From Deuterostichococcus epilithicus (Eukaryota; Chlorophyta; Trebouxiophyceae; Prasiolales; Stichococcaceae), in contig JAVTLE010000001.1 in the NCBI GenBank assembly GCA_033439295.1, positions 1,302,001-1,366,000 of the forward strand: 64,000 nucleotides of DNA. The letters run 5' to 3'. The notes beneath the pieces were generated by a model. That model worked only from the letters and a program-made list of their open reading frames with translations. It searched no databases and was not told the origin of the DNA. Made by a program: the position numbers and the translations under genes. Shown here one piece after another: positions 1 through 64,000 of the stretch. Every line of letters begins with the position of its first letter. The first letter of the stretch is position 1.

Positions 1-3000
1 TCTTCATGTGCAGCTGCCTTGCCGACGCACAGCAAGCCACAGGAAGGCAGCCGCTGGAGCACCCCGGCATGAGGCAGCTACACGTGTCAGCTCTGTGGCG
101 ATATGGCCGCAGGCCAACGCCGAGCGAAACCCTAAACCGTAAACTCGCCTTGGAAGCCGTCGACGGAGCTGATCTCCATTCGCTCCAGCCGTGGCCGTGG
201 CCGCAGCTCTCGCAGCAGTGTCACCTGAGAACAAGTACGTGGCATGACGTTCCCAAATGATGCAGGATCTGCTTGCAACTGATGCCAAAACCCTGTTCGG
301 CATTGTGGCTCCTGTTGCACGACTGCGAGCAAGCGCCTGTGCTGCCAGAGCGGGGCAGCACGTCACCTGAGCATTGTAGGGCGTGATGATGCCGATGTCA
401 GCAGGGCTGACCCCGGCCTTCACCAGCGCCTCTGCATGTGCGATGACCGCCTGCATGCCAGCGCACACCGTGCATGACTCGCGGCGCCCCACAGCAAAAG
501 TCAGGCGAGCGAAGGCTGCACTGCTGCACCGACTGCTCCCGCGGCGAACCAGCAACCGCCTGCGACCAGCATGGACAGGGGCGGCCTCACCATGTGTGCC
601 ATGGCGCGACCAAGCAGCAGCATTCCCCATTCAACACACCTGGGCTTCGGCCGGGTTGCAGGTGCTGTCCCCGCCTTCCTCAGCCACCTCCTCCATGTCA
701 CACCCGGCCGTGTCCACCAGCAGCAGCACCGGCTGCTCGCCGTCCACCGACGCCTGCTCCACACAAACACGAGTACCCGTGACTGGCTGCAGCGCCAGAT
801 ATTCGAACAACGAGTGCTGTCGCTGGCGCTCGGACTGATGCTTGCACGCCACCGGCGCCTTGTCCACACTCCCAGGGCTCCTGCTGGCATTCGCCGCGGT
901 GCCCGGGTTGCTGCCTGGGCAGACAGCCGCGCCTGGCGCGCGCCCGCGCGTCGCAAAGCAGGCCCCTGAGGAAGCTGTCCCAACGCCCATGCTGCCCCAA
1001 GAGGCCCACATCTGACAACATCCGTGCACACAACTCGGCATGCCAATGGGAATCCGCAGCCCGNCCGATNTCCTTCATGGTATGGAGGGTGTGGTCCGCA
1101 ACGGAGGCGTGCGCCGCCAGGCGGCCGCCGTAAAACTCGTCTGAGGACCAGCGCATCACATCCTCGTGCATGCGGTACTGCACCGTCAGCATTGCGCTGG
1201 CGGCGCTGCCGTGCTGCCGCTGCAGCCGCTCGAACAGCGTGCTGGCCAGGCCCTGCAGGTCGACAACGACAATCTTCACAGGTGGATGACATTGCACAGG
1301 ATGTTTGGCCGCCGCGCCACGCAGAGAATGCATGGGCAAGCCTGTGTGTACTGGACGAAGCGACTGGTAAGCGGCAAGGCGATCCTGAGCTTCAGCAGCT
1401 TGCTGCGCTTGCTGAATCAGTTCCAGCAGAGCAGACAGCTGTGCAGCGAAGCATAGCAGTGGGCAGCTGGCGGGGCGGCCTCTGCCCTGCGAGCGGCCTC
1501 CTCCTGCTGAGGATGGTGGGCAGGTCGCTTTCAGCAGAAGTGACAGCCGCATAAGGAACGGCGAAAGTATGCAGCACGTGGACCATGCCTTGCGGGCAGC
1601 CTCCTCGCTGATGATGGTGGGTGGCAGCTGCAGGTGGTCGCCAGCCAGCACCCCGCGCGGCGCCCGCAGCAGCGCGCCCCATGTCGACACCTCCAGCGCC
1701 TGCACACACACATGAATCACTCAGTCTCCTCTGCATCCGTGTCTTAGTCTGGTCTCTGGGGCAAACGGTTGCGATCGTCCCTGTGCTGAACCTAGACGAA
1801 TTTCGTCCTGAGTCAGCTTGCGCATCGCCTATTGTCAATCGGGTTTAATTCTGTTTGCTGCTGCAACCGCCGTTCGACGTGCAGGGCAGGCTTGCCTGGG
1901 CGGCCTCGTCGATGTAGACGACGTCAAACATGCCGTTCTTGCCCTGCAGGTTGCGCCCCAGCACGCCCGTCAGCGTTGCGCACACCACCTGTGCCGCACG
2001 CAGGAGGGGACGGCGTACCGCCGTCGGCTGCAGCTCGAAGTTCACCAACATTGGTGCGCCGCATCCAGGACCCAGCTTTCACAGCTTCGGCTCGCTTGCT
2101 GATGCGATACCACGACGTTTGTTGCCTCAATTTCAGGGTAGCGCTGCGGGCAGCCGCACAGGCATCCATCTTAGAGGTGCATCTGTCGGACTCTGCCATG
2201 TCCGCACATGGCACAGGAAAGGGCGCTAGAAAATGGAATATCGCTGGCTGGAATGTCGGATTCGTGATGGTGCACGTAGCACCTGGGCGTCGCGGACGAC
2301 CTCGGTGACGGCGCGCTCCTGCCGCTTCCGCTCCTCCTTCTGCAGCTGCCGCAGCTCCGCCCGCAGGCTGCGCCGCTCCGAGTAGTCCTGCAGGGTAAGG
2401 ATTCTGGAATGAGGAAACTGCAAGGCGGCCTGTCATCTGCCTGATGCTTCGAGGCACCCTGCACATTCTAGGCTGGCGGTATTCCGCTGCTGCATCTCCT
2501 GCTAGCAGCCCAGTTGCCATGTCAGAAGGTCAAATGATGAGAGAAGTGGGCTATGCATCTCTCAGCAAAACCATGAGTGTTTCCCGCATTGGTGAAGGCA
2601 CCTTGTGCTTGTGGGCTGGCAATACAAGCAAGGACATGCAGGTCATGCGACCGAGCTTGGCAATCCTTACTGCACAAACCACATACGCCCCTCGGTGGCG
2701 ACGGCACCTGATCATGACATGTTACCAAGACTGACCTTGCGGCCCAGTTTGGCGATCTTGGTCGTGATGCCCTTGATCTCCTTGCGGCAGTCCTTGGCCA
2801 GGGAGCTGTTGTCCGATTTGAGCACCGCCGCCTCCAGGCTGCTGCCCAGCACCTGGGATCAGGGACCAGGATAAACCTCTAAGCGCATTGAGAAGCAAAC
2901 TGCCTGAAGCTATTCCAGCCACCACAGCACCACTGCCTCCAGACTGCTGCTGCGCACCTGTCGGTGACACCCCAGCCCTCTGAAACGACCTCCAGACACA

Positions 3001-6000
3001 GTGCAGCCTTTTTGAGGAACTGAGCAGGAATGTCAAACGTTTACATCCGACGCAAGGATACGGGCCTGCGGATACCTGCGATGCCACTCCAGGTGTCAGA
3101 TCTCTGCCCGGGTCGGCGGGAGACGGACCTCTGGCAGCAGGCGCGCAGGGTGGCCAACGCGCAGGACACGGGTCTTGGGCGCCTGCCGCACCAGCCGTTC
3201 CACCATGTTGTCGACCTGCGGGTTTGCAACGGTGTTCAATGCCACGGCAGGTGCGCCGGGCTTCCATTCGATAGAGATATAGCGACAGTCGTGCTGGTAG
3301 TGATAGTAAAACAAGGTAGTGATAGTGATAGTAAGACTGGCATGTCATGCCTCGGCGCCGACATGGACCCAGGGATGCGGTGCAGACATGTGCAGCACTC
3401 CGTGGTATCAGTGCGCATGCGACGCAAGCGGCGGCAGGGCTGCTGGACTACATCCGTGAACGTTACGATTCATTATGCGTTTGTTGTTCACGTGGTGCGC
3501 ACCGCGATGTTGGAGGCGGCGCAGGCCAGGACCCGGTTGCCGCGCTTGACCTCCTGCAGCACCGCCTCCACCACCGCTGTCGTCTTACCTGCAGTATGAC
3601 AGACAAAATTTGAGTGTCCCTGGAAGCGTCTGCCTCCCACCAGCCCCGCTGTCGTGCCTGCGGCGTAGCAGACAATGTCAAACATCGTCCCTTGAAGCGC
3701 CTGCGGGTCAGGTTTCAGTGGCTGGACGTCCGCCACCAAGCCACGAGACCTGCCGCAATCCACGGGCGTAAGCCTGAAGCACGCCTCAACGCGGTAGATG
3801 GTCGCGTCGTGTATCCGCCCGTGCCACACATGCACACGCGCCTGTGCCGGGTGGGCCATGAATGAGGGCGATGTCTTGGGCCGTGAGCGCCAGGCCGACC
3901 GCCGCCCGCTGACTGGCGTCCAGCCCTGTGCTTTATAAACGGTTCAGACTCGCTCAGCGGCCGACAGGACATGCAGCGAATGTTGGACCAGGCAGTTGCT
4001 GTTTCAGAAGGCAGGAGGTAGCAGACAGCAGAAGGCAGAGGACAGAAGCTAAATTAGACGGCAGCTGCGTGTGAAGGATATTGCGGATGCACGACACATG
4101 CGTTTCGGCGCAGGTGGAGGCACACCCGTGTTCAGGGGCTTCCACTCGACCGGCGACGTCTGGAAGCGCAGCGGCCGCCCGGAAAACAATGCCTCCACGA
4201 GGCGGGACCCGGGCGCGAGCTGCTGCTGCGCAGCGCCGTCCAGGGCTTGCAGCGTCGACTGCATCCGCTGGTATGTCACCTGCCGCAGGCAAGTCGCATG
4301 TTCGTACATCGGAAACACACATACAACAACATACATATCTGCGTCGGGAGGCACAGGAGGCGAAGAGGCACATTAGCTGCGGTGGAAATTCTGCAGCCAA
4401 ACACGCCTACATGCCAACCCGTGTTGGTGTACCAACCATGGCGCCAGCCGACGCTCTCAAGTCGGAAAATTCAGCTAGTGGAACATTGAGCTGGCACACA
4501 TATATCACTTGAATGTACATGTATATATATATATATACGTGTAGATATATGTACATTTCATGGTTTTCTTTTGTTCATCCACCTTGTTGGCCAGCTTCTC
4601 CAGCCGAAGCGGCTGCTCGAGGCCGTCGTCGGGCGCATCATCCACCGCGATGACTATCGACGTCTCGTGCAGGCGGTACACCACGCCGCTGGCGACCGCT
4701 GGGCCGCCGCTGTCGGCCCTGCTGGGCCGGATGTCCACGATGTCGTGCGGCGACAGGCGGTGCTGCGGCAGCGGCTGCGGCGCGGTGCCGGAGGCAGCGC
4801 CCTGTGCGGCGGCGCACGGTAGCAGTCCTCAGGCCAGTGATTATTTTAAATCAGAAGTCGTGCGGCGTTGGGCCGTGCCGCAGCACCAGATGCGCAGGCA
4901 CTTGGCAGCTCTTCTAAGTCAGCAGGAGTGCACGGACCCCAAGCATTCCTGCAGGAGGCAGCCTGCAAGCGTTGGACACTCACATGCTGGCGACCTTTAT
5001 CTGCCCGTGCAGGCAGGCAGGGAGGGGGGGAGTAATCTCCAACTTGTCAGTGCAAATAAGGTTGTGGGTCGATGCTGCCGCCACAACGGCTGTGTGCCTT
5101 TTCGTGGTTGCGACAGTGTTCGCTGCGCCCATCCCACCAAGCCTTTCGCCCCACCCTTGCTGATGAGCGTGAGCAGCGTGCGGCGCAGCGGCCCGCTGGC
5201 ATCGAGGCGGTGGGTCAGAGGAGGCCGTGACAGCTGAAACCCAAACCCTAAACCTTAACACTGCGCCGCAGCGGCAACCGCGCCCCACCTTGTTGCTGAC
5301 GAGCGTGAGCAGCGTGCGGCCCAGGAGCCCGCCGGCCGCCTCCACGCATCGCAGGTTCAGCAGCGCCTGCCCCCGCGCCTGCGCCGCCGCCGGCGACAGT
5401 TTGGCAATTGCGTCGCCCGCCTGCGCCACTTCCGCTGCATGCTCCAGCTCCAGCAGCGGCCCCGTGAGCCTCACGTAGTCGTCCAGCGACATCGTCTGCT
5501 TGTCTGCTGCCGACTTGTCTGCCTGTGTTGCAGAGACACATGCATGCCCTTGCATTCGACCGCTGCTGTTCTTGCATGGATGCATTCTGGGGCTGGATGT
5601 GGCCCCATGAACCTCAATTGCGGAGTCAGCCGAACCGTAATTATGGTCGAAGCTCTCTGCCAGCAGCCTCCAGGAAAGTTCAGATTGTAAGGGGAGTACT
5701 GCTTGACGCTAGGAGCAGCAGTGTCGACGGTCGATGGCGGGTCAAGCAAGGACAGCACCGCACCTTTGCCTCATTCGCAGGCAATTTGGACGAGGGCCGT
5801 CGTGAGCCGGCAAACGCTGCCGCTGCTTCTATGTTCAGGTGCTGCACTAGCGCCGCGCACAGCTCCTCGTCTGAAACCTCGCCCTTGCCGCTCTCTGGAC
5901 AGACCTGTGAGAAACTTGCAGCAGTGGATTCCACAAGCTGGCATTCAGTTGGACTGGAGTGGCAGCCGCCACATCGTGGCAGACTGACCATTCCGATCAG

Positions 6001-9053: not shown

Positions 9054-11842
<2,789 letters not shown>

Positions 11843-13116: not shown

Positions 13117-16100
13117 CTACGCTGGTGTGTAATTTAGCGTAGCAGCAATTTTGTGGTTTCCCAATTCGGAGCCGGACAGTACGTCAGAGCGCCCACGTTT
13201 GGCATAGCTGCTGATGGACGGCGGCGTGTCGGCATCGCCGCCTTCGAGCGGCTCGCGCAGCGGCGTGCTGAAGCCGCTGAACACCGCGTGCCCATTGGAG
13301 GCGGGCGCCTCTGACGGCCTGCCGCAGGCTTTCAAGGTTTTGAGTAAGACGCGGGGACAATCATGACATAGGTGCGGAAAGCACCGCTCTTGCTGGGCGC
13401 ATTGCCCATGCACTGAATCCTAAGGTATTGCCAGCAGGCCTGTCGCCAGCACTCCATGCAGCATCGAAGAAAGCAGTGTTCTATGAGGTTGCTGCAGACG
13501 GTTCTCGGTCTGCCTGCTCCAACGCCTGCGAAGGTGCCGACAGCGAACAGCAAAAACCATGCATGCAACATGCGAGATGCGCCAGATCGTCAGGCCCATG
13601 GTGGCTGGCTGCAAAGCTGTGCCCGGAAACAGGACATGGGCACGCTTGCACCTGCGGCTGCGGCTGCCGGTGCGCCGCGAGGCATGCACAGGTTGCCAAG
13701 GCTGCAGGGCTCGAAGCATTCAAAACACCTTGGGCCCGAGTCGTGGGGGNTTGCGCACCCAGAGGGGGAGGGGGCGCCGGGGGTGCGCGGCTGCTGCACC
13801 GCGCCCAACAGCTCCCCCGATGACGACCGCAGCCGCTCCCGCTGCGCCATTGCCTCCTGTGAATCGCAGGCGAATGGAATACGAGCCTAATGGGTTCGGG
13901 TTGAATGAAGATGTATGTCTGAATTGAAAATTGCAGATCAGGACCGTTCACATCGCACTCGCCGCTTGGTGCGCTGCAGGTGCTCCTGCCGATTGGACTG
14001 AGTGCAAGAGCCTGAAGCAGGGACGGGCCTCGAGCTTCTGCGCGGCTGGCCAGTGTCTCACAGATGCGTCAAGGGATGCTGTTAGCCGGCACACCAAGCC
14101 GGTGATCGCGCAACAGCAGACTTTGTGTTCCCCAGCCCAGCAGCATTCCCAACTCTCAGGCAGCATGCCCTGAGATGATGCACACAAGTGCACAGGATGA
14201 AACAGCGCAGTCTTCGATTTCGTCCAGCCTGCGTAGGGGAAGTGCTCAGGGCCCCGGTCACTGAGTCACCTGCAGGGCAGCGGCTTGTGCGGCACGGGCG
14301 CGCTTCTCTTCAGCTGCCGATCTTGCTGCTGCCGACCGTGCCGCCTCCGCCTCGGCCTGCGAGCGACGCATGCGGCTAACAGTGAGCAGACGAACACTCA
14401 TGCATGTGACACGAAGCAGCTCCGTAGCAGGCGCGGCGGAGCGACAGGCATGAGCACAGCGCCGGTGCATGGCGATGGCCGTCGCCAGGCCTCAGCGGCG
14501 GCGTCCCAAGCTGTTGACATGATCTTTTGCCAAGCTGCTGTTGGCAAACGCAGGACTCGGCGATGGCTGAGCTTAAAACCTTCGGACCTGAAGTACCGGC
14601 AAGCCTCACAATCCTCACGAGCCATGGACCCTGCCCCCACCTGCAGCGAGACAGCGCGCTCCCGCAGGGCCGCCGCCTCGGCCTCGGCCGCTGCCGCCTG
14701 CCGNCTCGCGGCCGCCGCCTCCTGGCTCGCTGTCTCCAGCTGCGCCCGCAGGCCGGCGGTGGCGGCGGCCTCGCGCGAGCGCGCCGCCAGCCCTGCCGCC
14801 ATGGTCTGCTGCAGGGCCCGGTCGAGCTCCGCCTGCAGCGCGTCCACCCGCAGCCTGCAGGAGCAGCAAAACACGGTTGTTCAACGACCAGTGTTCACTG
14901 ACGGTAGCGCCCGGTCCAGCTCTGCCTGCAGCGCTTTTCGCTTGTAGCCTGCAGGCGCAGGTTCTCCATGCGACAGGGCTGACCAGGGGCAAGATAGGTC
15001 GATGGCATGTAGGCGCAGCGCAGATGGCACAAAATGTTCGCAAGACCCCGCCGCGCCCGGCTGTTGGTGTGGTGCTATCAATGACAGCGACTTGCAGGCT
15101 GAAGCGCCGGCCCCCATGCCATTTCGGTCACCGGAACAGAGTCTGAGCAGAATACATTTCCAAAGGCAAGCAGACTGTAGGACACGAGGTCGGCAAGGCA
15201 CGTTTATCTTTCAACGACGCTGGATACAAAGGAAAAAATCCGCTCACCCGGCCTCGAACAGCTGCCGCCGCAGCGCTTCGTCGCCACCGCTGTCCACGAT
15301 GCCAGCCGCTTGTGGCACCGTGCGCCGCGCCGCGGCCAGCTCCGCCTTGGCGTTGGCCAGCTCGATGCGGAGCCTGCGACGAGGAACAGCGCCACAGGGT
15401 GGGCAGGCGCCTGGGCAGCTGGCTGCAGCACTCGGAAGCAACAATTGTGCGAGACGAAACGACACAGCCCTGCTGTAATGGGGGCAGCATGTGGGCTGTC
15501 AGTGTGCATTAGCAAAGGCTGCCCACGCCTTGCCTATGCCGCTGTGTCCAGAGCAGTGTTGCCGTCACACAAGAGTGCTGGACGAGACTCGGGCAGCAGA
15601 GGATGCACAGCGGCACCACCTCTGGTTCTGCTCCACCGGGCCGACGGCGCCCGCGGCGCTGGACCCGGCACCGGCGTCGGGGCCGGCCTGCTCAGCCGTG
15701 CCACCATTGCCGCCGCCGCCAGACTGCTGCGCCCCCGGCCCGGCGACCTGCCTCCGCAGCGCCGCGTTGCCGAGCCGCAGCTCCGCCACCTCTGCCATGA
15801 GCGAGGCGTTGAGCGCCTCAGCAGCGGCCGCCGCGCCCTGGTCCGACACCCTCGTAGCGTGCGCAGCCTGCACAACAGATGGTCAAGTATGATGAGACCA
15901 GCTGGACATGTCACGTGCGCGGTCTGCACAACAGATTGAAAACAATCTGATAAGCATGAGGAGACCAGGCAGGACAGCTGTTGTCGGATTCACAGCGCGC
16001 CCTGGTCCGACGCCCTCATTTGTGCGCTCGGCCGGCACATGTGCTGGCGAGCCACACAGGCGCGAGCACCAACACGCGTCAAAGCTCCCGGTACGGTGTC

Positions 16101-19100: not shown

Positions 19101-22100
19101 GGCCATGTACCAGCCCTGGTAGTTTCGTCAGATCTGCACACCCCGCAGGCCAACAGNAGCCCCCCCCAAAAAATTCTCCCAGGGTCGACTGACGGGGTTC
19201 CAGGCATCGTGAGGACGCCACACGAGGCTGGCCCGACCCAACCGCTTTTCCCGCCGCTCCGCATGCGCTGCGGCGCATCTGCATGACGAGGTCCACGCAA
19301 AACGAGTTGCTTCAGGCGCATCCGCGAGGGCGGACAGGCACCTGCAGCGCGTCGAGCTCCTTGCCGAGGCGGCGGCACTCCTTCTGGTGGGCCTCCTCCC
19401 GCCGCAGCGCCCCCGTCAGCGCTGTCATCGTTGTGCTGGCGTCCTGCTGCGGCGCATGGCACGACAGACAAGGTCAATCGCGCGGAGGCGCCAGGCCCGA
19501 GGTGCATCGGGCTGCCACTGCCGCGTGCTGAGGCGACATGTGGCCCGACAGCGGCGGCCAGCTGTCACCGCTCTCCTCCCGCCCCGGTGGTAGCATGCAC
19601 GCAGAGACCGTCAAAGCACTGGCAGTGCACTCGTAGCTTCCGTTCGCACAGCCGCCCATCGCCGCATCTGCCAGGGCGAAGGGCTCGCGGACCGCGTGCA
19701 TGCTGCATGCGCGGGGAGGTTGAAATGCATGCCACATGCTTCGGGGTTTAGGGTTTGCCGCACCTGCCACGGCGACGGCCCCGCGGACCGCGGCGATGCC
19801 CAGTGCTGCGCGTGGCTGGGCGTGCTGGCCGGCGACCGCAGGCGGGAGGTCGGGGAGCCCAAGCCCCCAAGCTCCCCTGAGGCCGCCGCCTGCTGCCACG
19901 CGGCCAGCTCCGCCTTGAGGCGCCGGATCTCGTGGCGCAGCTGCGCCGCGTCGCCGCGCGTGTCCTCGTTGCGGTACACCTGCGCGGCAGCAGGAAGTAG
20001 ACATTGATGATGACGTTAATGACTACCGAAGGATTCCGCCTGCTGCATGAAAGCTCAGGGCTTGATGCAGGAGCTTCCCAGCTCTTATACCTTAGGTGTG
20101 GTTCAGTCACTGCACTGGTGTTGAGAATCAGCAAAGCAGCAGACAGGAATTGTCAGCAATCTGGTGCGCGCACCGTGTTGCGGATGGCCTTCACGCGCTG
20201 TGCGAAGCGCAGCGTGCTGAGCGTGTCCGCCATGTTGGTGGCCGCGGGGCTGACATTGGCGATCATCACCGTCTTTGCGTTGCCGCCAAGCGACTCCTGC
20301 GCCATGGAACAGGGGGCCGCGAGTTGCAGCAGCTTTCGCGGGGATGATGGCGAGCTGGCAATTGCTTGCAGGGAAAGCATCCTCACGAATAGCCCCGGGA
20401 GGAATGGAGGTGTGACGTCACAAACGAGACTGCCACTGCGTTGCAACAACGTAGCTCGTCCTCCTCAGGGCACAGCCGGGCACCTGCAGCAGGAAGGTGA
20501 GGCGGGAGTTGCGGTAGGGGACATGCTGTCGGCGGCCATGCTGGACGTCCACGAGGCTCATGATGACCTGGCCCAACACTGTCAGCGACACGTTGATGCC
20601 CGACGCCTCCTTCAGCCGGTCGCCCGTGGCACCCGACTGCCGCTGCCGCTCGCTGCCTGCACAAGCAAGGGGGGTGTGGGATTGCCCGAGGGTACAAATG
20701 CCGTAGTGCTCTGCCACCGCAGCATGTGGAGCGCTGTCTGATCTCAGGCCGTCTCACACGAGTCCACAATGCCACCCGGCAGCAGACACTCTCCCACAAG
20801 GATAGGGGAGACTGCGACGTGAGGGCCGGGCCTGATGTGTGCCGTCGCGTGCGACATACATTTCAAGTTTTGTTGGAAACCAAACAAGAGTTTCATCACA
20901 GCTCACAGCTTACAGGTAAAAATTGCACGCGCCTGCGAGGTCGACGAGGTTGAGGCGGGAGGAGAGGACGTGCGTGATGCCGGTGTCGTCGGTGGCCTTG
21001 CACTCCAGGACCGCGGTGAAGACGCTGTGCGAGCGGCTCGACTCGCTGTTCATCATCGTCTCCCCGATCTTGCGATTCAGCTGCCCCTTCTCCAGCAGCG
21101 CCGCCACGTCGCTCACTGCGAGCCGGGGCCGTGGATGTACAATGCCATGATGCAGCCTTGCCTGATGCTCCTGTCAGTCCGGCTGGCGGTTGACATGCAT
21201 GGTCACCACCACATCAAGCATCAGGTGCGCAGCGTGACTTGTGGTCGGCAGGTGCGCCTGTGCCGCTGGAAGCAGCCCACGGCAGCAAGCAACCACAAGC
21301 CGGCGGTCTCGTGGCCCGGACCCAGCCCCTGGGGCACCTCGCCGCATGGGCGGCCACACAGGTCGCGCGCATGCGAGGGGGCGGCAGCGACGCACTGTCG
21401 CGGACCACGTGCTCCGAGAGGCGCTCCACGAAGATGCCGCGCTTGACGTCCTCCCGGATCAGCAGATGCGTCGCCTCCGGGTTCAGCAGGTCCGTGATCA
21501 CCTGCCGCGCGGCGGGTCGCTCGTCACGGAGGGCGGCGCCGCCACTCTTTCAGCACCAGGCATGGTGTGGGGACTGTGCGGGGCCTGTGCAGGGTGGCAG
21601 CGCGCCGCGTAGGGCTCAGCATAGCGGCCGCATTGCAGCCTCCGGGTGCAGAGCCTGCGAGGCGTGCAGCTCCCGGTGGGGGGCCGGTGAACCAAGCAAA
21701 CGCACCTCGTTGTAGATCTCCAGGAAGGAGCAGCGGATGACCACGTCCCTCTTCACACCGGCCTGAGGCCACCCAGCATGTATCAGTGAGGCACTGGGCG
21801 CGATGCACACAGGATGTGCAGGCCCTTCAAAGGTGCCTCGTGGTTGCGGGTCACCAAGCAGCTGTCACCTGGTGTTGAATGGTGGCCTATTGCACATCTG
21901 AGGGGAGGTGCAGCCCCTGCAGGAATGATGCCAAATCAGCTGGATGGAAATATTCCTGAGATGGCCAAACCCACCTCTGCCTGCTCCTTCATCTGCTCCA
22001 GACGTATGAAGACATCCTGGAAGACGCGCGGGATGAGGCCCCGCATCTGCGAGGTGCAACGGCGCCGCACTGTGAAGCAGCCAATCCTCAGGCCACGCAG

Positions 22101-25089: not shown

Positions 25090-28000
25090 ATGAACAGCGG
25101 CGGCGAAGTCGAGCTGCCATCCACATCTCGTTTGCTACCACTGGCGGCGTACCCGTTTGCAGGTGTGCAGCAGCAGCACGACTGGTCCGGCTCAGCCTCA
25201 GAAGGCGCCAAAGCCGGGGAGCAAAACTGCCCCGCCAGCGAGCCTGGGCCGCAGGACCCTTGGATGGTGACCGCCGCCCGCCAGCGGGCGCACTCAGCCT
25301 CTGACGGGTCCGCACCGACGTCGCTGGCGGGCTCCCTGCCGAGCACACCGCTGCGGCGACAGCTCGGCGGGGTCGCTGACTCCGAACCGCTTGCATGGGG
25401 CTCTGGCGCTGGCGGCGACGGCGGCGGCGGCAGCGTCGCCTCGGAGCTGCCGACGATGCTGCCGCCGCTCAAGCACATGCTGCGGGCGCGCGCGTCGCTG
25501 CCGCTCGACTCGCAGCTGGATCAGCTGAAGCCCACGCAGAGAGCTCGGCCCGCCAGTGCCGCGCAGCTCGAGAGCCGCCTGGCGCTGGCGCAGCAGTCGG
25601 ACGCTGCGCAGCGCCCCATTCTTGGGCAGCACTATCCATTGCCCGCCCAGCAGCAGCCGCAGCAGCATACCGGCACGGCTTCACCGGCGGGATTTGGTGG
25701 CGCACCGCTACACGGCAGCGCGCAGTCCCAGCCACGCGCGCCGGCGCCGTCGCCGGAGAGCCTGAGCATGCGGGAGCTCATGGAGGCCGCAGCAGCGGCG
25801 CGGCGGCTGGAGGGTGAGGTGCTGGCCCTGCAGGCACGGCTCGCCGGCGAGGTCGCCGACCGGCGGCGCAGCGAGGCGGGCTTGGAGGGGCTGCATGCCG
25901 CCAATGACAGGTCGTCGTATACTGTTTGCACTGACTTCTTACTGTTGATGCGCTGACTTGCTGCTGTAAATCTCAAGTGCGCTCGGGGTCATCGTTGCCT
26001 GGTCAGAGCTTCTCCGAATGCCTGCTGAAGCTCCAGGCTGCCCTGGTGGGAAAAGATGGCGCGGCAAGCGCACAGTGGATCGTGCTCATTGTGCATCTTC
26101 CTCCTCCTCTGTTCGCAGGCTCAATGGCGAGGTGCATCAACTGCACGGGCGCCTGCAGGCAGCGGGCACGGAGCAGCAGCGGGCCGACCAGGAGGCTCGG
26201 GAGCTGCACGCTGCGAACGACAGGTGCTGAGAGCGGTGGCGTGTCCTGCTGCTGCATGCTGCACTGCGGTGCCGTGATGCTGGTTTGCACATCCCGCTGC
26301 ATGGCTGCAGAACGACGGGTTTGGGATTTGCACATCCCGTCGCTGTGTCAGGACCATGATCCCTCGCATTCTCGTCTACCTGTGGCCACGTCGGTGATAC
26401 ACGAGTTTGGGGAGCATCAAATCCTGCTCAGCGGACTGATGGCCTACCACGCTTGCAGGCTGTGCAGCGAGCTGCAGCAGCTGCGGGGGCAGCAGCAAGC
26501 AGTGGGCGCTGAGCAGCAGCAGGTGGCGGAGCAGGCGCAGGAGCTGCAGGCAGCAAACGACAGGTGCAGAAGCGTGCGGCATCGTGTAGCGGCGCTGTGC
26601 TGCTGGCTGTTGCCCGTGTTGCAGCATGGCTGCAGGCTGACCCATCAGGCGCTCATCGCGTCGCTGCGGCAGTGGCACGATGCCCTGCCTCACCTCGTCC
26701 GATGTGGACACATCCTGATGGTACTGTGGTGTCTAATTGCTGGGCGCGGGCTGTTGCTCTGCAAACCTGCAGTCCTGCCGGATTCGCAGGCTGAACAGCG
26801 AGCTGCAGCAGCTGCGGGGGCAGCTGCAGGCAGCGGGCGAGGAGCACCAGCGGGCGGCAGAGGAGGCGCATGAAGTGCAGGCAGCCAACGAAGCGCTGCA
26901 GCGGCAGGTCAAGGTGACAAACGTCCCATCGCATATTTGAGGCGCCTGCTTGAGATCTGAGATCTGAGGCCCCCCAGATCTGAGGCCCCCACTGCTGGAC
27001 TGTTTGTGTGTTGCGATGTTTGCTGATGCATCAGTTCCCTCAGGGAGCATGCAGCTGAGGTCATGCATTGTCCCTTTCTGCAAAGCCTCGGATCTTTGCT
27101 CGAACCCAAGCAGTGATTCCCCCGATGCCAACGTCATTACAGGAGCGAGACGCTGCCGGGCAGGCGCTCGCGGCGCAGGCCGCCGACATGCACGAAGCAC
27201 TTTCGGCAGCAGAGGCAGAAATTGCGCGCCTGCAACGGCTGGGCAAAACGACCAGCGCAGACACGTCGGCCCTGCAGGTGCATCCACGGACATAGCGATG
27301 CGGGCCGCATCTTCGATGGTCTCCGAGATGACTGAACTGCGACACTGGCCAGAATTTTCGTGGCTGCGACACATGTCTGCAGCACCAACAGGCCTCCCCG
27401 CACACGCACACGCACATCCAGCGTCACCGCCGGAGCTTCCGCCAGGCTCGCTGTCAGCGACGACAAGTCCTGGAGTGCTTGCCGGTCTCGGCAATCGCCA
27501 TTTGCCTTTTGCCCTTTTCAATTGCCTGCTGGATTGTCTTGCGTGCAGGAGCAGCTGGCGGCGGCGCAGGCGGAGGCCCAGCAGGCGCGCGACGAGGCGG
27601 AGGCGGCCGCCCGGCGCCTGCGCGGCGCGCAGGCGGCCGCAGCCGACGCGGAGGACCGCGCCCAGCGCCTGCAGCAGGAGACTTCGTTCGCCAGGCAGCG
27701 GTGGGCTCCTGCTGGCCGCCTGCCTGTCTGCCCGCCCTGCCTGGAACCGTCTGACACCGACACATTGTACTCCTGACAGGCTCACTCTGCAGGGCTGGAG
27801 GGCCAAGGGGCGTCTATCGCAACAAGGGAATCCAGTCAGCAGGTGAAGGTCCAGCAGCCCACAACCAATCGCTTGTCCATGCCGGGATGAGGCGGCGACG
27901 GAGGGGCCGGCTTGGACGGCGCCGCCAGAACCAGGACCCCAATTGAAAGCATCCTTTTCTGGGATTCGTTTTCTCGCTTTTCTCGCAACTCCACAGGGCG

Positions 28001-42400: not shown

Positions 42401-45400
42401 ACAGGTTGCAGGGCCTGTTGCTGCCAGGCCTGTTGTAGCAGCAAGGAAAACACTTGCAACGAAAATCCACCAGCGCTACTGCTTTGCCGCAGGCAGCCGC
42501 GCCCCGCGTCTGCCACAATCGAGGCAATTCCACAGCACCTTGACCCGCTGCCGTTTCGCGCGCGCAGGCCAGCATGCTCGACATACGCGGCGGTCCGGTG
42601 GGGCTGCGCCGCGATGTGGCGGCGGGCGGCCCAGCGGGCGCGGGCGCGGGCCTCGCCAATGACACCGGGGAGTACAATTGCTTCCTGAACGCCATCATCC
42701 AGTGCATCTGGCGCTGCGAGGACTTCCGTGCCGGCATGCTGGCCATGGACACAAGCGGCATCCCCCACCACGAGGGCAACCGTGCGTTCCGCCCCCTGCG
42801 GCCCCCAGCTTCAACGCTCAGCGCGGCGTTCTGGCTCCTGAGCCGTCCTGATGAGTGTCCGAGCCTAGGCTTGCAGAGTATCCAGTGGGTTCCGCCCACG
42901 CTTTGCACACACACGTTGTCATGCATCGCCGCCGTTCTGTTGGCATGGCTGCACACCTGCTGCTGTGACAAATGCTTGTCACAGCTTCATACGCGACACG
43001 CCACCGACAGCTGCACGGCGGCAGCGTCGGCACAGCCTTGACACTGCGTCCGGCAGCCGGCACCGCTGTGAGTGAAGTAGGGTAGCAGCATCTGCCGATG
43101 GCGTGCGCAAGCAAGGCAGCAGCACCTGCCGTCTGCATGCATCCGAGCTGACATGCTCCATGCTGGCCCCCCTGCAGCACGCATCGTGCTGGAGCTGCAC
43201 AGCCTTTTCCGGGCGCTGGAGCAACAGGAACGAGTCGCCGCAGGCGATGAGCCGCAGGCCGAGCGCGCAGTCGTGTCCCCAAACGGCCTGCGCGAAGCGC
43301 TCGCCCAGTGCCACAACTTCCAGTTGGGTGCGGCCCTTGTCGCCACTGCCTCTCAGAACGCTTTCCTAACGAGGCATGTGACGGGTGCATTCCCTCGTGC
43401 CTTCCCTCGGCTGCTTCTGCGAGCGGCATTGGTCAGCAAGACCAGCGGCGGCGCATAATCTCCACGTCTCTTGCGCATGCGTTTCCGCCGCCTGTGCTTT
43501 CCCTGCCCCCCCGCGCCTCGCCCCGCTCACCCCTGTGAGCGTCGCCCCACCCCGCAGGCGAGATGAACGACGCGTCGGAGGTGCTGCACGCGATCTACTC
43601 CGCGCTGGGGGACCAGGGCCAGGCGCAGCTGGTCAACGGTTGCTTCGGGCTCGAGGTCATGGAGGTGCGGTTCCTGCTGAATCCCAACATTGTAAAACCC
43701 TAGTGGCGCTGGTGGACAGGGCCAGGCACAGCTGGTCGACGGTGTTCGGGCTGGAAGTCGTTGAGGCGCAGACGCAACAAAACCCTTTCATACCAATCAG
43801 AACATCTGACCTGACCTCGAACAGTTCCTCGACGAGACTCAAATTTCTGAAAGGGCGTTTCCAAGCTCATCCTGACTTGTCTATAGCTGGGCGATTGACA
43901 CAGACGTTCACACACCATGGCAACGTGGTGGCAGGCAATCCGACAGTGACAGGATGTGTCTGGACTCTTGAGCCGTGGGCAGTTCGGCATGCGCGCATTG
44001 GAAGTTGGGGCGAGCTGGTTCCGAGGCCAGAGACCGCCGCCGGCGCCAGCTGCACCCCGGGCCCTCTTGCAAAGCACTGGCCTGGTCATCAGGCGCTGCC
44101 GGCGCAGGCGGTCACACCTGCCGCTCCTGTGCCAAATGCCGCTCCTGTGCATTGGAGCCAAACTCTGACCTTCCCTCGGTCGTTGCCGCCAGGTGGTCAA
44201 CTGCCGCTCCTGCGCCAAGAAGACGCACAAGACGCAGTACATGCAGTACTTGCAAAATGTGACGGCGGCTGCGCTGCGGGAGCATGCGCAGCTCGACGAT
44301 GGCGTCAGCCTGGGCGACCGCCTGCGGGCCATCAACGCGCTGACGCGCAAGACCTGCGACCAGGACATGGGTGCGTTTCCATGTGCGGGCAGTGTTCGCA
44401 GGTTCGCAAGGTGACAGGCCGGCCAGCAGCAGGCACCCGTGGGCAATTACTTGCCCTGATGGGCACTCGTGGGCGTCAGGGCTACTGCAGGGGAGCAGCG
44501 GCATGCCACATCGTGGGGGTGTGTTTCTGCTGGCTGGCCTGCTTCCCGGACTGCCGTGCATGTGTGCCAGCGCCCACTCGGCCATGGCAAACCCAGGTGA
44601 CGTACCTGGCGGATGGTGATGGGCCGTGCTTCTGCCCAGTGTCCGTGTTCGTGCTGCTTTTGTGCACTCGCGCCCAGGCGGCTGCGGTAAGCTGAATCAG
44701 GTGACGCATATGGACGGCAATTGGCCGCGCTCCAGTGCACAATGCCTGGTCACAATCTGCGATGTTCAACTGTTGTCTGTCGGCGTGCAGGCGGCTGCGG
44801 CAAGCTGAACCAGGTGACGCACCTGGTGGACGGCGACGGGCCGCGTGTCTTCACGCTGGAGCTGGGCTGGGAGACGCCGCAGGAGGCGCCGGAGGATATT
44901 GCCGCCACGCTCGCCGCCGTCGAGCCCTTCCTGCTGCCCTGTGCGTTCCCTATACCCTGCTGCAACCATGCCCTACCGCAGCCGTAGCCCCTTGCCGCCA
45001 CGCCCGCCGCCACCGAGCCTTCCTGCTCAAGGCTCCTTGGAAACGCGTAGGCAGCTGGGTTCTGATGGTCGCGCCGCGCCCGAGGTGCCGGCCATGCAGC
45101 CCTGCCCCGCAGCTCGTCATGCTCAGCACGATCGCTGTGTACCTGAAAGCACAGTCTTGGCGGCCTGCCCCGTGCCACTAACGTCCCACCCGCGCCTGAC
45201 TTCCTGCTGACTCTCTGCACTTGCGCCCCTCGCCCCCCGCAGCGGAGCTGTACAGGTCCCTCAACGAGCGCACGCATGCGCTGCGGGCGATGGTCAGCTA
45301 CTACGGGCAGCACTACATGGCCTTCGTGCACCTGCCAGGCGCGGACGGCACCTACCGCTCCGGCCGCTGGCTGCTGCTGGACGACGCGCACGCCAGCGAG

Positions 45401-48595: not shown

Positions 48596-51500
48596 ATGAG
48601 GGACCAACATCAAGGTGGGCAGGACTCGATGGCCGTCCGCGAAGGCCTCCGGCGGGTGTGCGCCAAGCAAAGCCTCGCCAAGGGCACTTTCGACGGCAGC
48701 CTGCTGCAGCGAAGGCTGGCTGAGATGCCGCGTGGCGCCATGCAAAAGGTGTATTATCGCCCAAAATAAAACCTCCTTATGGTGGCAGATCACAGATTGC
48801 AGGCGCCGGACCCAATCTGTCAGCGAACGCTGCCGCCATGTGCTGACATCATTTAAATGCTATTCTGCTTGTCACCGCCCAGTCCTGAACTAATAATCCT
48901 CTACGTGAACAGGAGACATGAGTCCGAAGGAATTTCGAAGAAAGCTGCTGGAACTGACACTGCTTCAGCCTTTCATTATGGCCTGCACAGGCTCTGGACA
49001 AGCTCGAAAACAGCGACCTGCACAAGGCCCGCAACACAATTGGTGCGATGAGTTTTTGAATTTCCTCGTCGCACTGCTGACAAGCAAGTGCAGGTCACAT
49101 CTGCTTCAAATCACATTGTGACCCTCAATGAGCCTGCCTTGTGATGCTGCAGTGTGTAGGACGTACATGCTTTGCAGACCACTTGCTCTCGCTGACGCAG
49201 GCTTCGCCCTGGCTGATGTTGGAGATCTGATCGACGAGTTCTGCTCCGCTTCATCCCCATGGCACCCCTTCCAGCCGCCGCTGGGAGGGTGCGTCTGCTG
49301 GCTAGGGGCAAGAGGCTGCTGGCCTGCTGCACCCAACTCCCTGTGCTGGGCTTGCGCATACTGATGGCCTCTGCTTCACGCATTTCAAGCCACACTCATA
49401 GCTGTTACCCCTGCGCATGCCACGACTGCTGTGGCCGTCCCGCCGCCAGGGCCGCCAGCTGCTGCAGATGCCTGTGTGGATGCGTTGGAGACTGCTGAGG
49501 CTGCTGCTACTGCCTCGAAAAGGCACGTGCTTCAGGCAGTGCGGCGTGCCTGTGCAATGCAGGCCGCCATTATCGGAGTGGGAGACCTCTCGCCTGCGGC
49601 AAGAGCACCACATCAGGCATGACAGCGACTTTCTGCGCTACTGTAATGCATGCGCTAGGCAGCGACCACAGTATAGGCAATGAATGGCGCAGCTCCACGG
49701 TGTGACATTGGGGCTCGTTGGTAGGGCTGTCCCCGGTGCCTTGCCAACTGTCACTGCCCTGCCCACTTCAGCATCTCTGAGCTTTGCAGCTGTTCCAGTC
49801 GCCTGCTGACCTGTCACTGTTCTGCATCTGCTGCAGGGTGCTGAGGGACGTGGCGCATCTGCACGGCCTGCCCGAAAGCCTGCTGATAGACGGCAACCTG
49901 CCCGCCAATATGGCACGGCTGACCTGGGAGCAGGAGCAGCGGCTGTGCCGCCAGGTGCGAACACGCCACTGCCCGGGTGGGAGGAGGTTGGTTCTCTGCG
50001 AGTGTCTGTATGCTTCTTGCGGGTCCGTGAACTTGCCGGAAGGATCCACACTGCTCCGTCAATGGTGCGTGGTGCATCTTGTTTCGGTTTGAGTGGCAAG
50101 GTCACGGCGCCAGTGCACAACGGAAGCATGGAGCGGCAAGGCATGCCGTCAGCGGCGGCCACTGCTGCTGTGGGACGCCGCATGGGTGCATCGCAGGCGC
50201 TCGTGGGTGCCACATCATCGTGTCACTGTCTGGGGGCTGCAGCTGCGGGATGTGGACCTGTCGCCCACAACAGTGGCGTCGCCAGTCGGCTACATCATCA
50301 AGATGATGCAGCGCCTGCAAGTACCCCGGAGCAATGACCAGGTGGGCGCCCAAATCCCAGCACCCAAGTCAGAGTGGTCCCTTTAGGGTTTCCACTGTGC
50401 ACGGCAAAGCGAGATCTCACCTGCTGCCGGTCTGCCTGCTTCGGTGCCATATTGCTGTGCTCGCGGTACACTCGTCCGCTTTTCGTTCTTGCGTGCTCGA
50501 TCCTGAGCTTCGAAGCAAGTGGCAAACCCCGCTGATGTGGCATGCTCCGTGCCCACCAGATCGTCTGCAACGTATGCAACCAAGCAGGTGCGCTGGCAGC
50601 AACTGCTGCACACCGTACCAGCGCCATGTTTGCAGCATTGGCGCCTGCGCGTCAGTGCGGCTTGCGTGGCTATGCCAGCAGTGCTCATTGGAGCATGTCT
50701 GCGCAGAATTGCCTGAGACCTCGTTTGCTTATGCTGTCCTCAGGGCACTACGTGCGCAATTGTCCAAACAACGTGTGCCACGGTGAGGAAATGTGATATG
50801 TTACATACTTGCCAGTGCGCGCACATTGTCTCGGTTGCAGAAGGCTTGCAAGGAATCACTATCAGACACGATGACGCATCATGACATGCCTTGCAGTCTG
50901 TGGGACACCCAGCCACCACAGTAACGAGTGCCCTCGCAGCCGCAATGTGGCCAAGTGCGCCCCCCCTCCCCCTTCCCTCCTGTTGCAATTCTGGCGTGGG
51001 TCTAGGCAGATTTATGTCTCTCGTCTGTGCCGATGCATTTCAAAGCTGCGAATTGCACAGCACCACACAAAACTTCATGAATGAGGTAAATGATGGATGA
51101 TGCCTCCTGTGCAGCAGTGCGCCTGCCGCTGCCAGATCCACCGCCTTGACGACACCGCAGCCGCAACGGCTGGCAGCCCTCGCGAAGGTGCGGCGCCTGT
51201 GCTGCACGCTGCAAAGCAGAGACTCTGCCAGCTCCTGTGGCCACATGCTGTGCAATGCCGGCATCTCTTTTTAATGGGGTGACGAAATTAATTCCTGCTT
51301 ACTGCTGCAGGCTGAGCCTGCAGCAAAGGCGACCGCCCTCACCAAGCAGGAGACGGCTGGCGGGACCAACAGAGGTGGGTTGCAACAAGAAGTACAGCAT
51401 GCTGTGTTGCAAGTCATACCATCTCCGGTGTTGCAGCAGGGTACGTATTGACCCCTGCATTGATCTGCTCCCATGCCCCGGTCATGACGCGCACATGTGC

Positions 51501-58240: not shown

Positions 58241-58730
58241 CATCAGTTCATGTTGTTGTCCTGCCATATTTGGGCCAGTGTTGATAAAAGGTCTGAGCCT
58301 GATGAGCAGCCTGTCCGGCGTTGTCCATCCTGCAGTGCTGCTGGCATGGACAACATCATTTGCAATGATCTCTTGCAATGAAAATACGCAGGTTGATCAG
58401 CGGAATAGCGGATGATGACATCAACCCTCACCTTAGACCTGGCGGCGGCTGGCACGGCCTGCTGTTTGCTGACGGCGCAGGCGGCCCGGACGTGCGGTCA
58501 GATTACATTGCGCCTGCTGATGAGCCAGCTTGCGATTGGCTGCCCAGGTCCTGGCGCTGGCTTCGAAGCTGTTTCTTCTTGGCTGCAGTCTTCCTCGCTG
58601 TCGTCCAAATTTCCTCTTCTGCCTGGGAGGCTTCCTGCGGCTGGTCCTGCAAGCTGCTGCCCTCCGACCTGACGAGCGATTCTTCTGGATGATCAAGCAC
58701 ACCGCAGGTTTTGCGTTTTCAGCCACCGCC

Positions 58731-58832
58731 TGCTATCTACTGGGAGTGCACCCGAACTGACCAGCCTGAGCCCGAACTGACCAGCCTGAGACTGAATGCT
58801 ATCTACTGGGAGTGCACCCGAACTGACCAGCA
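58731..58832. repeat. 35-bp direct repeat with an inner 20-bp tandem
   Basis: TGCTATCTACTGGGAGTGCA followed by CCCGAACTGACCAGC occurs at 58731-58765 and 58798-58832. Inside, CCCGAACTGACCAGCCTGAG is repeated in tandem at 58751-58770 and 58771-58790. The spacing of the large copies is 67 bases. Confidence 0.95.
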
Positions 58833-60879: not shown

Positions 60880-61064
60880 AAGCCAGCGGGCAGCTGGTCC
60901 GGGGGGCTGAAGACAATAGAACGCATAGCAATCCCAATCTCAGTAGGTAGTCACAGATGTGGATTGTTGAAGTGACCTGACAACACACAATGCACGACCA
61001 GAGGTCGTTAATGGCATGGCGAGCAGTTCTTGCATGTTCTACACCACCTGTACAAGTACCACTC
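60880..61064. other. short convergent spacer
   Basis: Only 185 bases separate the NDUFA6 and PheRS-beta stop codons, so their 3' UTRs probably overlap as antisense transcripts. Confidence 0.5.
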
Positions 61065-64000
61065 TCATTGTAGTTTCAATTCCGTCATGTGCGTCGGCAG
61101 CGGCCGATATGCCTGGTCGAACACGAACGGCTCGATGTTAATCTCCAGCGCTGACACCGGAAAAGGGATGTCGAATGCCGTGAGCACCTCCGGGTGGATA
61201 ATGCCGAACTGCCCGATCGGCTGGTCCCGCGCATACACCGTCGCCTGCCGCCCCTGCGCACAGTGGATGATTATGTGATGTGATGCCGCCGCACACACTC
61301 AAGCGTGCTCGACCTGGAACATTGGTTTTATAACAACATGCAAGCTGGACACCTGCGCACTTTCATGTCGGAGATGTCGAGCAGCCCATCTCTATTGCGA
61401 GTGGTAAAGTGTACAAGAGGTAGCTCACCGGGAAGAAGGTGGCGTCATCGCTCGGCTTCCAGGTGTAGCAGCCGCCAAACTTAGCCTCCTGCTGCTGCGC
61501 CGCCTCGCCCTGAGTGCCCTCTGCACACAGGCAACCATGCTGCCGCTCGAGCAATGGGGCGTCATCCAGCGCGCCTCAAGCCTGGTGGCCTGCTGGTCAG
61601 GCAGACCACATGCTACTTGCAAGTCGAAATCGTCGGGCTGATGTCCCCGAACACAGCAGGAGTGATTGCCAGGGGCGCCTGCCGCCGGCTTCGCCTCAGA
61701 GCAACTCCTGCAGCCATCAGGAGTTAGTTGCCCGAGGATGTGAGAGCGCCAAGGGGCGCACCCTGGCCGGGCAGGCGGACGGGCACCCCGAGGACCTCCA
61801 TTACGCGGTTGAGCAGGCCGTGCATGATCTCAAAAGTGGAGGCGTTACTGCAGCAGACCGCCACCAGCCGCCGCTCGTTCCGCGCCCCCTGCGCAGGCAG
61901 ACAGGGGTGCCATGCTGATGCTGGACGTGTGAGCGGAGCGCAAAGGCGCGTAGATAAGCATGGGACATGCATGAGCTCTGCCTGCTCTGGAGATAGCAAG
62001 CATGCGGGAAACTTGTCTCGAGTTGCAGAGCTGGCATTGCTTGTGCCAGCTGCAAGCAGAAAGCTCACTGTTTCTGTGGAGGGATCCAGTAGCACAACGT
62101 CTGAGATGTCGAACAGCTTGACAGGGATGGGGCTGTCCTTGTTAGCGCCCAGCGTCTTCAGCGCGCCTGCGGTCTGGCAAAGAATTGCTTTACAGACCAG
62201 AGAGCACAGCAGTCTACGTTCTGCGCGCCTGCGGTGCGAAAGACTCCTGGTTGACACCAGAAACCGCAGCTCCACGGTGCAGATCATAGCGCAGCCCATG
62301 GTTGACAATGCAGACGCTGTCATGCAAGTTGGGCAGATGGCAGCACAGCGTGCTCTGCTTCTGACGTTGAACGGCAGACGTCCCCGGCAATGTCACAAAG
62401 TCAAGGCCACAAAAGAACTCGATGCAGCAGCGGCGGCGCACCCGGCAGCAGGCTGGTGCGGCAGACCTCGAACTCCGCCGTCGCGGGGTTGCCGATGCAC
62501 ACCGCCGATTTGCCGTCGTCCCTCCGCCGCAGCGCCCCAAAGTTTTCCGCTGTAGACACCAGCGCCCAGGTCAGAATCTCGGTGTAGCCGGCCATCGCGC
62601 ACTCCCCCCGCAGCAGCTCCGTCAGCTGGTTGACGGGCAGCTCTTGCCCAACGGTCACCGCGTGTGGGATGGTGCGTGCGATGTTGTTGTAACCGTACGC
62701 AATGGCCACGTCCTGCAAGCAAATACGCACACATGTCATATAAGACAAGAACGACAGGTGGAGATGAGAGCACGCCTTGTTGTCGAAAACAGAAGGGTAC
62801 CAATGAGCAAAACTCACGAGTCTGCACTATGCACAATGGTCGATAGCAACCCCAGCTGCCATGGCACGACCGTCCCACGGCTCTTGCAATATCATATCGA
62901 TGAAGCTCGAGCTCGAGAGCCCTAAATCCTGAATCCATGGCCACCGCACCTCTGCAACATCGCAGGCGTGCAGCACGTCTGACCGCGTGGGCGGCACCGC
63001 CACACGGACGGCCGCGCTGTCGTCGACGAGCTGTCCCGCGAGCGCCATGCGCGACAGGCACTCCGCCACCTGCTCCGCTGGCAGCTGCGTGCCCAGCGCC
63101 GCGTTGATGGCCGCCACTGGGACATCCATCTCCCGTGAGCTGAGGTCCGGGTACACTGCGGCACAGGAGGCGTGAGCACGGTGATCCCACGTGAGGAGCC
63201 ATGGGCTAGATGGGGGCAGCCGCTCACAGTACTGCACGTCGGACGGCAGCCAGAGCGGCATGCACGGCTGGCGGGGAGATGCAGCGTGTTGCCATGCAGC
63301 AACATGGAGGCCTGCGCCTCTGCACCGCCTGTCTCGTGCTGCAAATACTCATCGCACGTGCTTGTCTCTAAAGGGGATGCCGTGCTGGAGGCGGCACGCG
63401 CACCTGTGGACTGGCCGAAGGCGTCAACGACCTCGACGGGCTCCGTGACGAAGGGCTCCGAGCAATACTCGGAGAACATCGCGCACAGCGTGTTCAGCAC
63501 CACCTGAACCTCAGGCAGAGGCAGGGTCAAAAGGCAGGTGCTAGAGACAGCATCGCTGACCCGAAACATGCGACCTGCCGTGGCTTGTGCCGCACCACTC
63601 CTGACAAGCCCTCCCGCTGCTGTGCAAGGCAGCTCCGGTTGCGTGGCAGCGCCGCTGCCACGGGTGTGCAGACGGTTTGCGAGGTTTATGCTGATCGGCT
63701 GGAAGTGGGATGCCCTGCGCAATCTGCAGGAACACGCCCGCAGCGCTGTGCTTCACAAGTGGATCGATAGAGGGGAATGCATCAGCCTGAAAGGTGGGAG
63801 GACATCCTGTGCGAAGGAAACCACACCTTGGCTTTCGTCAAGTCCGTGGCTGTGGCCTCGATGAATACATCCCTCGTGTTCAGCGAGATCTGCAGCACCC
63901 ACCACCACGAGATTGTAAAGCAGCAACCTGAGGGTGTGCCATCGTTTGCGGTCGTGCCTGGGCTGCACAAGGGGGGCACTGCATGCTGTGATTGGCCGCT
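61065..64000 (-). CDS. phenylalanyl-tRNA synthetase beta subunit (5' end missing)
   Basis: Cytosolic-type PheRS beta; with alpha it charges tRNA-Phe. Minus-strand exons with consistent phase: 63889-63827 (ISLNTRDVFIEATATDLTKA), 63503-63404 (LNTLCAMFSEYCSEPFVTEP), 63155-62950 (YPDLSSREMDVPVAAINAAL, then RVAVPPTRSDVLHACDVAE), 62712-62442 (DVAIAYGYNNIARTIP, then GYTEILTWALVS), 62166-62069 (ALKTLGANKD, PIPVKLFDISDVVLLDPST), 61888-61762 (NERRLVAVCCSNASTFEIMH, VMEVLGVPVRLPGQ), 61520-61429 (GCYTWKPSDDATFFP) and 61253-61065 (GRQATVYARDQPIGQFGIIH, ending ELKLQ). B5 domain and beta core are present. The N-terminal region lies beyond base 64000. The order and joins match the archaeal/eukaryotic cytosolic form. 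Confidence 0.93.

Follow-up and report, generated by a model that had tools for sequence, protein, structure and literature searches.

How do introns come to hold decayed copies of the exon edges that adjoin them, and why does telomere-like DNA lie between some of these copies, just past a 5' splice site? Both questions arise from a 64,000-nt window of the Deuterostichococcus epilithicus genome (46.79 Mb in 21 contigs), namely, the forward strand of contig JAVTLE010000001.1 (here, C1) from 1302001 to 1366000. The window has a GC content of 59 to 66% and a high gene density. Exon models come from a self-trained HMM gene finder, trained and applied on this same window without transcript data, which returned about 100 introns with a median length of 241 nt, a donor consensus of GTGCG, and an acceptor consensus of CTGCAG. 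Five predicted proteins have Pfam matches (SMUBP-2 helicase, kinesin, ubiquitin hydrolase, phenylalanyl-tRNA synthetase beta, and DAHP synthetase), and a search of the window against Rfam at gathering thresholds gave zero matches. The DAHP synthetase I family gene occupies 9054-11842 (Pfam); its product resembles KDO-8-P synthase, as expected in plants and green algae. A near-palindromic, TATA/ACAT-rich stretch was seen by eye within an intron at 4510-4560.

Exon-edge copies within introns

The earlier note on this DNA had described nine places in which an intron holds a decayed copy of the adjoining exon edge, and all nine self-align, at 67 to 100% identity (Table 1). Identity is lowest, at 67%, in A1 (3574-3705) and in the long alignment of A5, although the A5 core (44675-44729/44788-44845) reaches 83% by blastn. 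When the window was compared with itself by blastn, 15 direct pairs were found at offsets of 15 to 600 (score of at least 40), versus none in inverted orientation within 600 and none at offsets of 20000 to 20585; all offsets above 600, on both strands together, gave nine matches, one of which falls in a coding tandem repeat at 26 kb. An ungapped scan with a low-complexity filter (offsets 15 to 400, score of at least 34) returned 14 pairs, versus 0, 0, and 0 in the three other offset ranges that served as controls. The pair 28731/28784, not listed by blastn, was recovered by the scan, and the reverse applies to the gapped pair 5147/5281. By both approaches, short-range direct repeats in the window are far more numerous than in the controls. 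They include several pairs absent from the earlier note: 1483/1586, 2821/2926, 27885/28000/28076, 44105/44190, and 44899/44992, as well as the intron-internal 17564/17836 and the intergenic 58731/58797.

When scored from predicted splice sites (at least 34), flanking copies accompany 7/101 donors and 7/100 acceptors. Among these seven donors, 44735 is part of a decayed copy called as an exon by the gene finder, as judged from a USP54 homologue that aligns with a protein holding one copy only, which leaves six donor-side pairs. The A5 copy at 44678-44734, an exon according to the gene finder, is dispensable for homology. Use of the outer exon is supported by the gene models and, at three of the edges (the USP exon 43558-43664, the exon starting at 44791, and the SMUBP2 exon with donor 5288), by homology. 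At D1, the predicted protein matches SMUBP-2 chain 4b3f across the junction; at D2, the kinesin domain is located elsewhere in the predicted protein and not at the junction.

Assembly error or collapsed haplotypes could, in principle, generate such copies, and the window contains six N; but most copies are only 76 to 95% identical and are spread over several genes on both strands, whereas an assembly duplicate would be near identical, and we give this explanation almost no credence.

Table 1. Exon-edge copies and telomere-like runs, in window positions (D, donor-side; A, acceptor-side)
Feature	Positions	Strand	Evidence and remarks
D1, decayed intronic copy	5147-5200	-	SMUBP2-like helicase gene; 86% over 56 columns to 5281-5336
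D1, predicted true exon end plus 8 intron bases, donor 5288	5281-5336	-	HMM exon 5289-5522
D1, telomere-like run in filler, sense TTTAGGG	5237-5258	-	Exact core 5243-5254, 34-45 nt past donor
D2, decayed copy	19661-19713	-	Kinesin-like gene; 80% over 56 columns to 19757-19810
D2, predicted true exon end, donor 19763	19757-19810	-	HMM exon 19764-19979
D2, exact telomere run, 13 bp, sense CCCTAAA	19744-19756	-	7-19 nt past donor
D3, predicted true exon end and donor (28743)	28731-28751	+	Self-alignment; HMM exon 28489-28742
D3, filler, 32 bp, mostly telomere-like, sense CCCTAAA	28752-28783	+	Exact core 28770-28781
D3, intronic copy, identical 21/21	28784-28804	+	Self-alignment
D4, predicted true exon end, USP-like gene, donor 43665	43602-43668	+	USP54 chain 8c61 homology across junction
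D4, decayed copy	43706-43769	+	Self-alignment
Donor-side pair lacking a telomere motif (1483-1520 with 1586-1621)	1483-1621	-	blastn
Donor-side pair, copies 44899-44935 and 44992-45027	44899-45027	+	blastn
Telomere run, sense TTTAGGG	127-138	-	10-21 nt past GC-type donor 148, by eye
Telomere run, sense TTTAGGG	34708-34717	+	79-88 nt past donor 34629, ATG4-like exon, by eye and homology
Telomere run, sense TTTAGGG	50382-50391	+	61-70 nt past donor 50321 (loosest setting) or ~40 nt past 50342 (by eye)
Single heptamer, sense TTTAGGG	62920-62926	-	23-29 nt past donor 62949
Acceptor-side pair	2821-2960	-	blastn
A1, weak acceptor-side pair	3553-3704	-	67% self-alignment; outside the pair counts
A2, acceptor-side pair, DAHP-synthase-family gene	10571-10750	+	Self-alignment, blastn
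A3, acceptor-side pair	14806-14960	-	Self-alignment
A4, acceptor-side pair plus extra repeat 15858/15914	15832-16039	-	Self-alignment, ungapped scan
Three-copy series in a single intron, last copy at acceptor 28078	27885-28126	+	blastn
Acceptor-side pair	44105-44218	+	blastn
A5, acceptor-side multi-copy series	44557-44845	+	Self-alignment, blastn

Exon borders are heavily represented among these repeats: in 13/15 intron-involving pairs, an exon edge is matched with a decayed intronic copy. The 15 were drawn from 18 rows after exclusion of the coding tandem repeat at 26127, the exon-exon pair at 40112, and the intergenic pair at 58731; 44675/44788 counts as a border pair on homology (the gene finder calls both of its copies exon), and three of the 13 fall in one cluster at 44.6 to 45.0 kb, so that not all are independent. 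Among 17 non-overlapping pairs with scores of at least 34, 12 match a mostly exonic copy with a non-exonic one (rotation mean 4.9, p = 0.0015), and 10 have a border in exactly one copy (4.9 by rotation, p = 0.018). Border pairs are, however, easier to detect, since an exonic copy is preserved and decay is limited to its partner: when random events of uniform age were simulated in the introns of the window, border pairs made up 22 to 39% of those generated and 28 to 50% of those detectable. The border preference, which the earlier note had left unexplained, is partly accounted for by this one-sided decay, and the remaining excess (13/15 observed) leads us to reject one-sided decay as a full account; some preference for borders beyond detection bias may exist.

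Other duplications lie away from exon borders. A pair that is 88% identical at an offset of 272 (17564-17653/17836-17926) falls entirely within a predicted intron of the kinesin-like gene, so the duplicating process is not restricted to borders. Sequence called intergenic contains a 95%-identical pair (58731-58771/58797-58837) with a perfect 20-bp tandem at 58751-58790. A coiled-coil-like gene has repeated coding units at 26112-26891, spaced ~340 and 670 bp apart, 67 to 77% identical, and with predicted introns between them; these are perhaps whole exon-intron duplications. Repeats in the A4 region (15832-16039) fall into two or more offset classes (56 and 164) around a single acceptor, which suggests that this acceptor was hit more than once.

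Anatomy of the pairs and their fillers

Most exon-edge pairs have aligned cores of 21 to 67 bp, with copy starts mostly 53 to 164 bp apart (217 in one pair) and, in the 13 pairs examined, a spacer of 18 to 142 bp between the copies. Among the exon-edge pairs counted above, all but 44593/44810 have a core that stops no more than about 14 bases from the splice site, and 28731/28784 does likewise. The copies are internal to introns and do not occupy their opposite ends, as in the intron at 4775-5288, whose copy lies at 5147-5200. This position leads us to reject intron gain by tandem duplication (the AGGT model). The possible bearing on intron gain raised by the earlier note is not borne out, with no gain demonstrated and all copies sitting within existing introns.

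A competing account invokes short tandem duplications of the ordinary kind and their neutral decay, in which the pairs are the remains of longer units, the exonic copy is protected, and the telomere motifs are there by chance or independently. A decayed tandem unit predicts that the part of the intron beside the true exon resembles the part beside the copy. In none of 13 pairs was filler-flank homology significant in the expected direction (p = 0.055 to 1.0), the test having low power for old pairs; one comparison reached p = 0.01, on the non-expected side. The values for 1483 (p = 0.055), 43602 and 44105 (p = 0.105 each), and 5147 (p = 0.11) are suggestive of such homology, and A4, A5, and the 27885-28126 series contain more than two copies, as decayed tandems might. 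On the other hand, homology is nil in 28731/28784 (21/21 identical, p = 0.65) and 44899/44992 (89%, p = 0.925), where it should be visible. The filler is clearly outside the repeat unit in these two pairs; the other 11 gave no significant result, at low power. Fillers vary in both length and sequence between pairs. With filler that has no significant homology to its flanks, the architecture of the pairs looks like duplication plus filler, and we reject decayed long tandem units as a full account. One-sided decay raises the detectable share of border pairs, as tandem decay would have it, but not to the observed level, and telomere runs associate with copies (see below), so we regard tandem duplication with decay as unlikely.

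The presence of insertions with flanking direct repeats at splice sites also invites comparison with a family of mobile elements or introners that would target exon borders and leave long target-site duplications, introners having been detected in 5% of the species searched in the survey reported in PMC9860276. But the fillers differ from one another in the ways just described, and no interspersed family was seen in the window: the best 25 distant matches, judged by their coordinates, are mostly between predicted exons. We judge remnants of such a family to be very improbable.

Telomere-like runs downstream of 5' splice sites

Exact period-7 runs of at least 12 bp in the window are most often built from TTTAGGG, with four runs (those starting at 127, 5243, 19744, and 28770) versus three for each of the next three units; two further TTTAGGG runs, of 10 bp each, occur at 34708 and 50382. 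The run unit matches the telomere repeat of the species: among the matches listed of 373, TTTAGGG arrays open contigs C1 and C5, and further arrays are found on C3 and C4. Chlorella and Coccomyxa telomeres are likewise TTTAGGG, according to PMC12633428. Also among the matches listed are two seemingly internal sites with three exact TTTAGGG units each (contig C4, 1055490-1055510 and 1210439-1210459).

Each of the six runs of at least 10 bp starts past a 5' splice site, at a distance of 7 to 79 nt, and in the sense direction four read TTTAGGG and two read CCCTAAA. The gene finder supplied three of the six donors, and its loosest setting a fourth (50321); the other two were read by eye and checked by homology. 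The exon at donor 148 is backed by homology, namely, the SMUBP-2 motif SVDGFQG; this SMUBP2-like gene site is of the GC type, and C at the second base has a weight of 0.03 in the trained donor profile. The statistical strength of the donor bias depends on how donors are counted. With gene-finder donors, 3/6 run midpoints fall within 80 nt after a donor, versus 75/445 for control units of AT 3-5 and 26/150 for those of AT 4 (p = 0.07); with the loosest donor settings, the figures are 4/6 versus 78/445 and 27/150 (p of about 0.01). Adding the by-eye donors yields 5/6 by the 80-nt midpoint rule and 6/6 by run start (the run at 34708 starts 79 nt past its donor, but with a midpoint at 83 nt, it fails the midpoint rule), although this addition was made for telomere runs only, control runs being given no second look. 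The donor bias is strong on the full hand-aided count and weak on the strict gene-finder test; with six sites, it is a lead.

Degenerate telomere-like hits with scores of at least 10 show no excess in number in the window (10, versus a mean of 15.4 for permuted units), and the telomere signal is seen only in the count of exact runs and in position: 6/10 such hits fall within 80 nt after a gene-finder donor, versus 67/292 for 19 permuted units. The degenerate hit at 28236 is preceded by a gene-finder donor whose 31-nt "intron" is probably spurious.

Position past the donor, in exact runs and degenerate hits alike, is what would be expected if the motifs had a function, either as an intronic splicing element or as a site for a telomere-repeat protein, with the duplications a separate matter, and TTTAGGG includes GGG, a known type of intronic enhancer. 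The mixed orientation of the runs, unlike that of an RNA motif, makes a splicing function less likely, as do the small number of runs (six, for the ~100 predicted introns in the window) and the location of three of the six between duplicated copies, for which a splicing motif does not account. A function of this kind strikes us as improbable. Both orientations are as expected for the insertion of DNA.

Telomere runs are associated with flanking copies: 3/6 runs lie between copies (5147/5281, 19661/19757, and 28731/28784), whereas copies accompany 4/98 other donors (Fisher p = 0.0035), one of those four being 44735, the decayed copy called exon. The youngest-looking pair, 28731/28784, carries the 32-bp, mostly telomere-like filler. 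Flanking copies were not found at 127-138, 34708-34717, 50382-50391, or 62920 (the single heptamer). Acceptor-side copies in the window enclose none of the six runs of at least 10 bp. 

The earlier note had held that donor-side copies always bracket telomere-like DNA, citing four cases, and that acceptor-side cases lack it. Of the four, D1, D2, and D3 have runs of at least 12 bp, and the D4 filler (43669-43705) holds only an 8-mer, AAACCCTA, as telomere-like DNA. The rule itself fails, in that two of the six donor-side pairs (1483/1586 and 44899/44992) have no TTTAGGG heptamer, in addition to the one with an 8-mer only; the 44899/44992 filler contains CCCTATACCCT, with a weak degenerate telomere score of 9. 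The acceptor-side statement stands as a count (0/7 pairs with a run), but its difference from the donor side (3/6) is not significant alone (p = 0.07, by hand).

Proposed repair of staggered breaks and its precedents

We favor, with moderate confidence, the reading that the exon-edge duplications and their fillers are scars of end-joining repair of staggered breaks, with filler that is sometimes telomeric. A staggered break close to an exon-intron border would have its overhangs filled in, duplicating a segment of ~20 to 67 bp with the exon edge in it and, in most cases, the splice site as well. Filler of some tens of bases would be joined between the copies and, at some breaks, would include one to three telomeric repeats, which telomerase may have added or which may have been taken up as pieces of telomeres. 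Such an event would survive if the outermost donor or acceptor stayed in use, since the protein would then be unchanged and only the intron would lengthen, and the inner copy would then decay. The sequence itself shows the paired copies, the filler, and the telomeric runs beside donors; that a break occurred and was filled in, where the telomeric DNA came from, and in which order the steps took place is what we infer from one sequence. Telomere capture at staggered breaks, as the earlier note proposed, draws support from the duplication, the filler without significant flank homology, the anatomy of D3, and published precedents, even as the supposed constancy of telomeric filler at donors falls away.

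Several points weigh against reading the pairs as repair scars. Random breakage predicts neither donor proximity nor the residual excess of border pairs, no flanking copies could be detected at half of the telomere runs (3/6), and degenerate telomere-like hits are not in excess. The donor position might conceivably reflect breaks made co-transcriptionally at 5' splice sites. Going further, breaks just 3' of 5' splice sites might be repeatedly healed with telomeric DNA and a fill-in duplication of the exon end, a splice-site-directed repair, perhaps linked to transcription or R-loops, that would lengthen introns from their 5' ends; this extension is tentative, and we doubt it more than we believe it. 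Should the donor bias hold genome-wide, telomeric inserts would mark intragenic breaks and tie repair outcome to splice sites. Putative scars of this kind accompany about 7% each of the window's predicted donors and acceptors, a frequency that would allow events to be counted and dated and intron growth to be measured, and the asymmetric decay, with the exon copy held by selection, would provide a built-in clock.

The closest precedents for telomeric filler are the interstitial telomeric sequences of mammals. Telomeric repeats inserted at staggered breaks, with duplications at their flanks, are reported from horse, primates, and rodents (PMC7215372, PMC2246262), and there, as apparently here too, short internal telomeric runs sometimes come with target duplication and extra bases. 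Duplication is nonetheless the minority outcome in mammals, at 4.6% of rodent and 16% of primate loci (PMC2246262) and, as duplication alone, at 4.5% of horse loci (PMC7215372), and the insertions are documented by empty alleles or orthologues (PMC2246262, PMC7215372), whereas here 3/6 runs have a duplication, read from a single sequence. The distributions differ as well: the human one is described as fitting random insertion, with 31% of sites intronic (PMC7215372), whereas all six runs here follow donors. In literature on telomere repeats in introns, splice sites, and intron gain, mostly judged by titles and the openings of abstracts, donor-proximal telomere repeats were not found.

For the duplications, the nearest parallels concern fill-in synthesis and introns. 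In mouse and human cells, fill-in of staggered ends by CST-Pol alpha is reported to yield duplications (PMC8355091); like those proposed here, they are short, and the enzymes, CST and Pol alpha-primase, also serve telomeres, whereas telomeric filler, present in some of our pairs, is not mentioned in the portions of PMC8355091 considered. Among gained introns in Drosophila, direct repeats flank 19/77, versus 26/100 conserved introns (PMC3296678), a lack of excess that counts against the repair reading proposed here. Internal repeats in Daphnia introns are ascribed to staggered breaks (PMC4202315), and in its neointrons, as here, internal direct repeats are read as scars of such breaks that may lengthen introns; the exon-shared repeats in Daphnia measure 4 to 12 bp (PMC4202315), whereas the cores here are 21 to 67 bp, lie at exon edges, and in some cases enclose telomeric filler. 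In the potato RdRp gene, as here, an intron 3' end and exon start were duplicated, but the tandem duplication there gave rise to a new spliced intron (PMC4974935), whereas here the inner copy decays within one intron. Finally, direct repeats near splice sites have been taken as marks of break repair in PMC11782384, as border repeats are here; that work compares the 5' and 3' borders of introns, with repeats of 4 to 30 bp, whereas the pairs in this window each match one exon edge with an internal copy.
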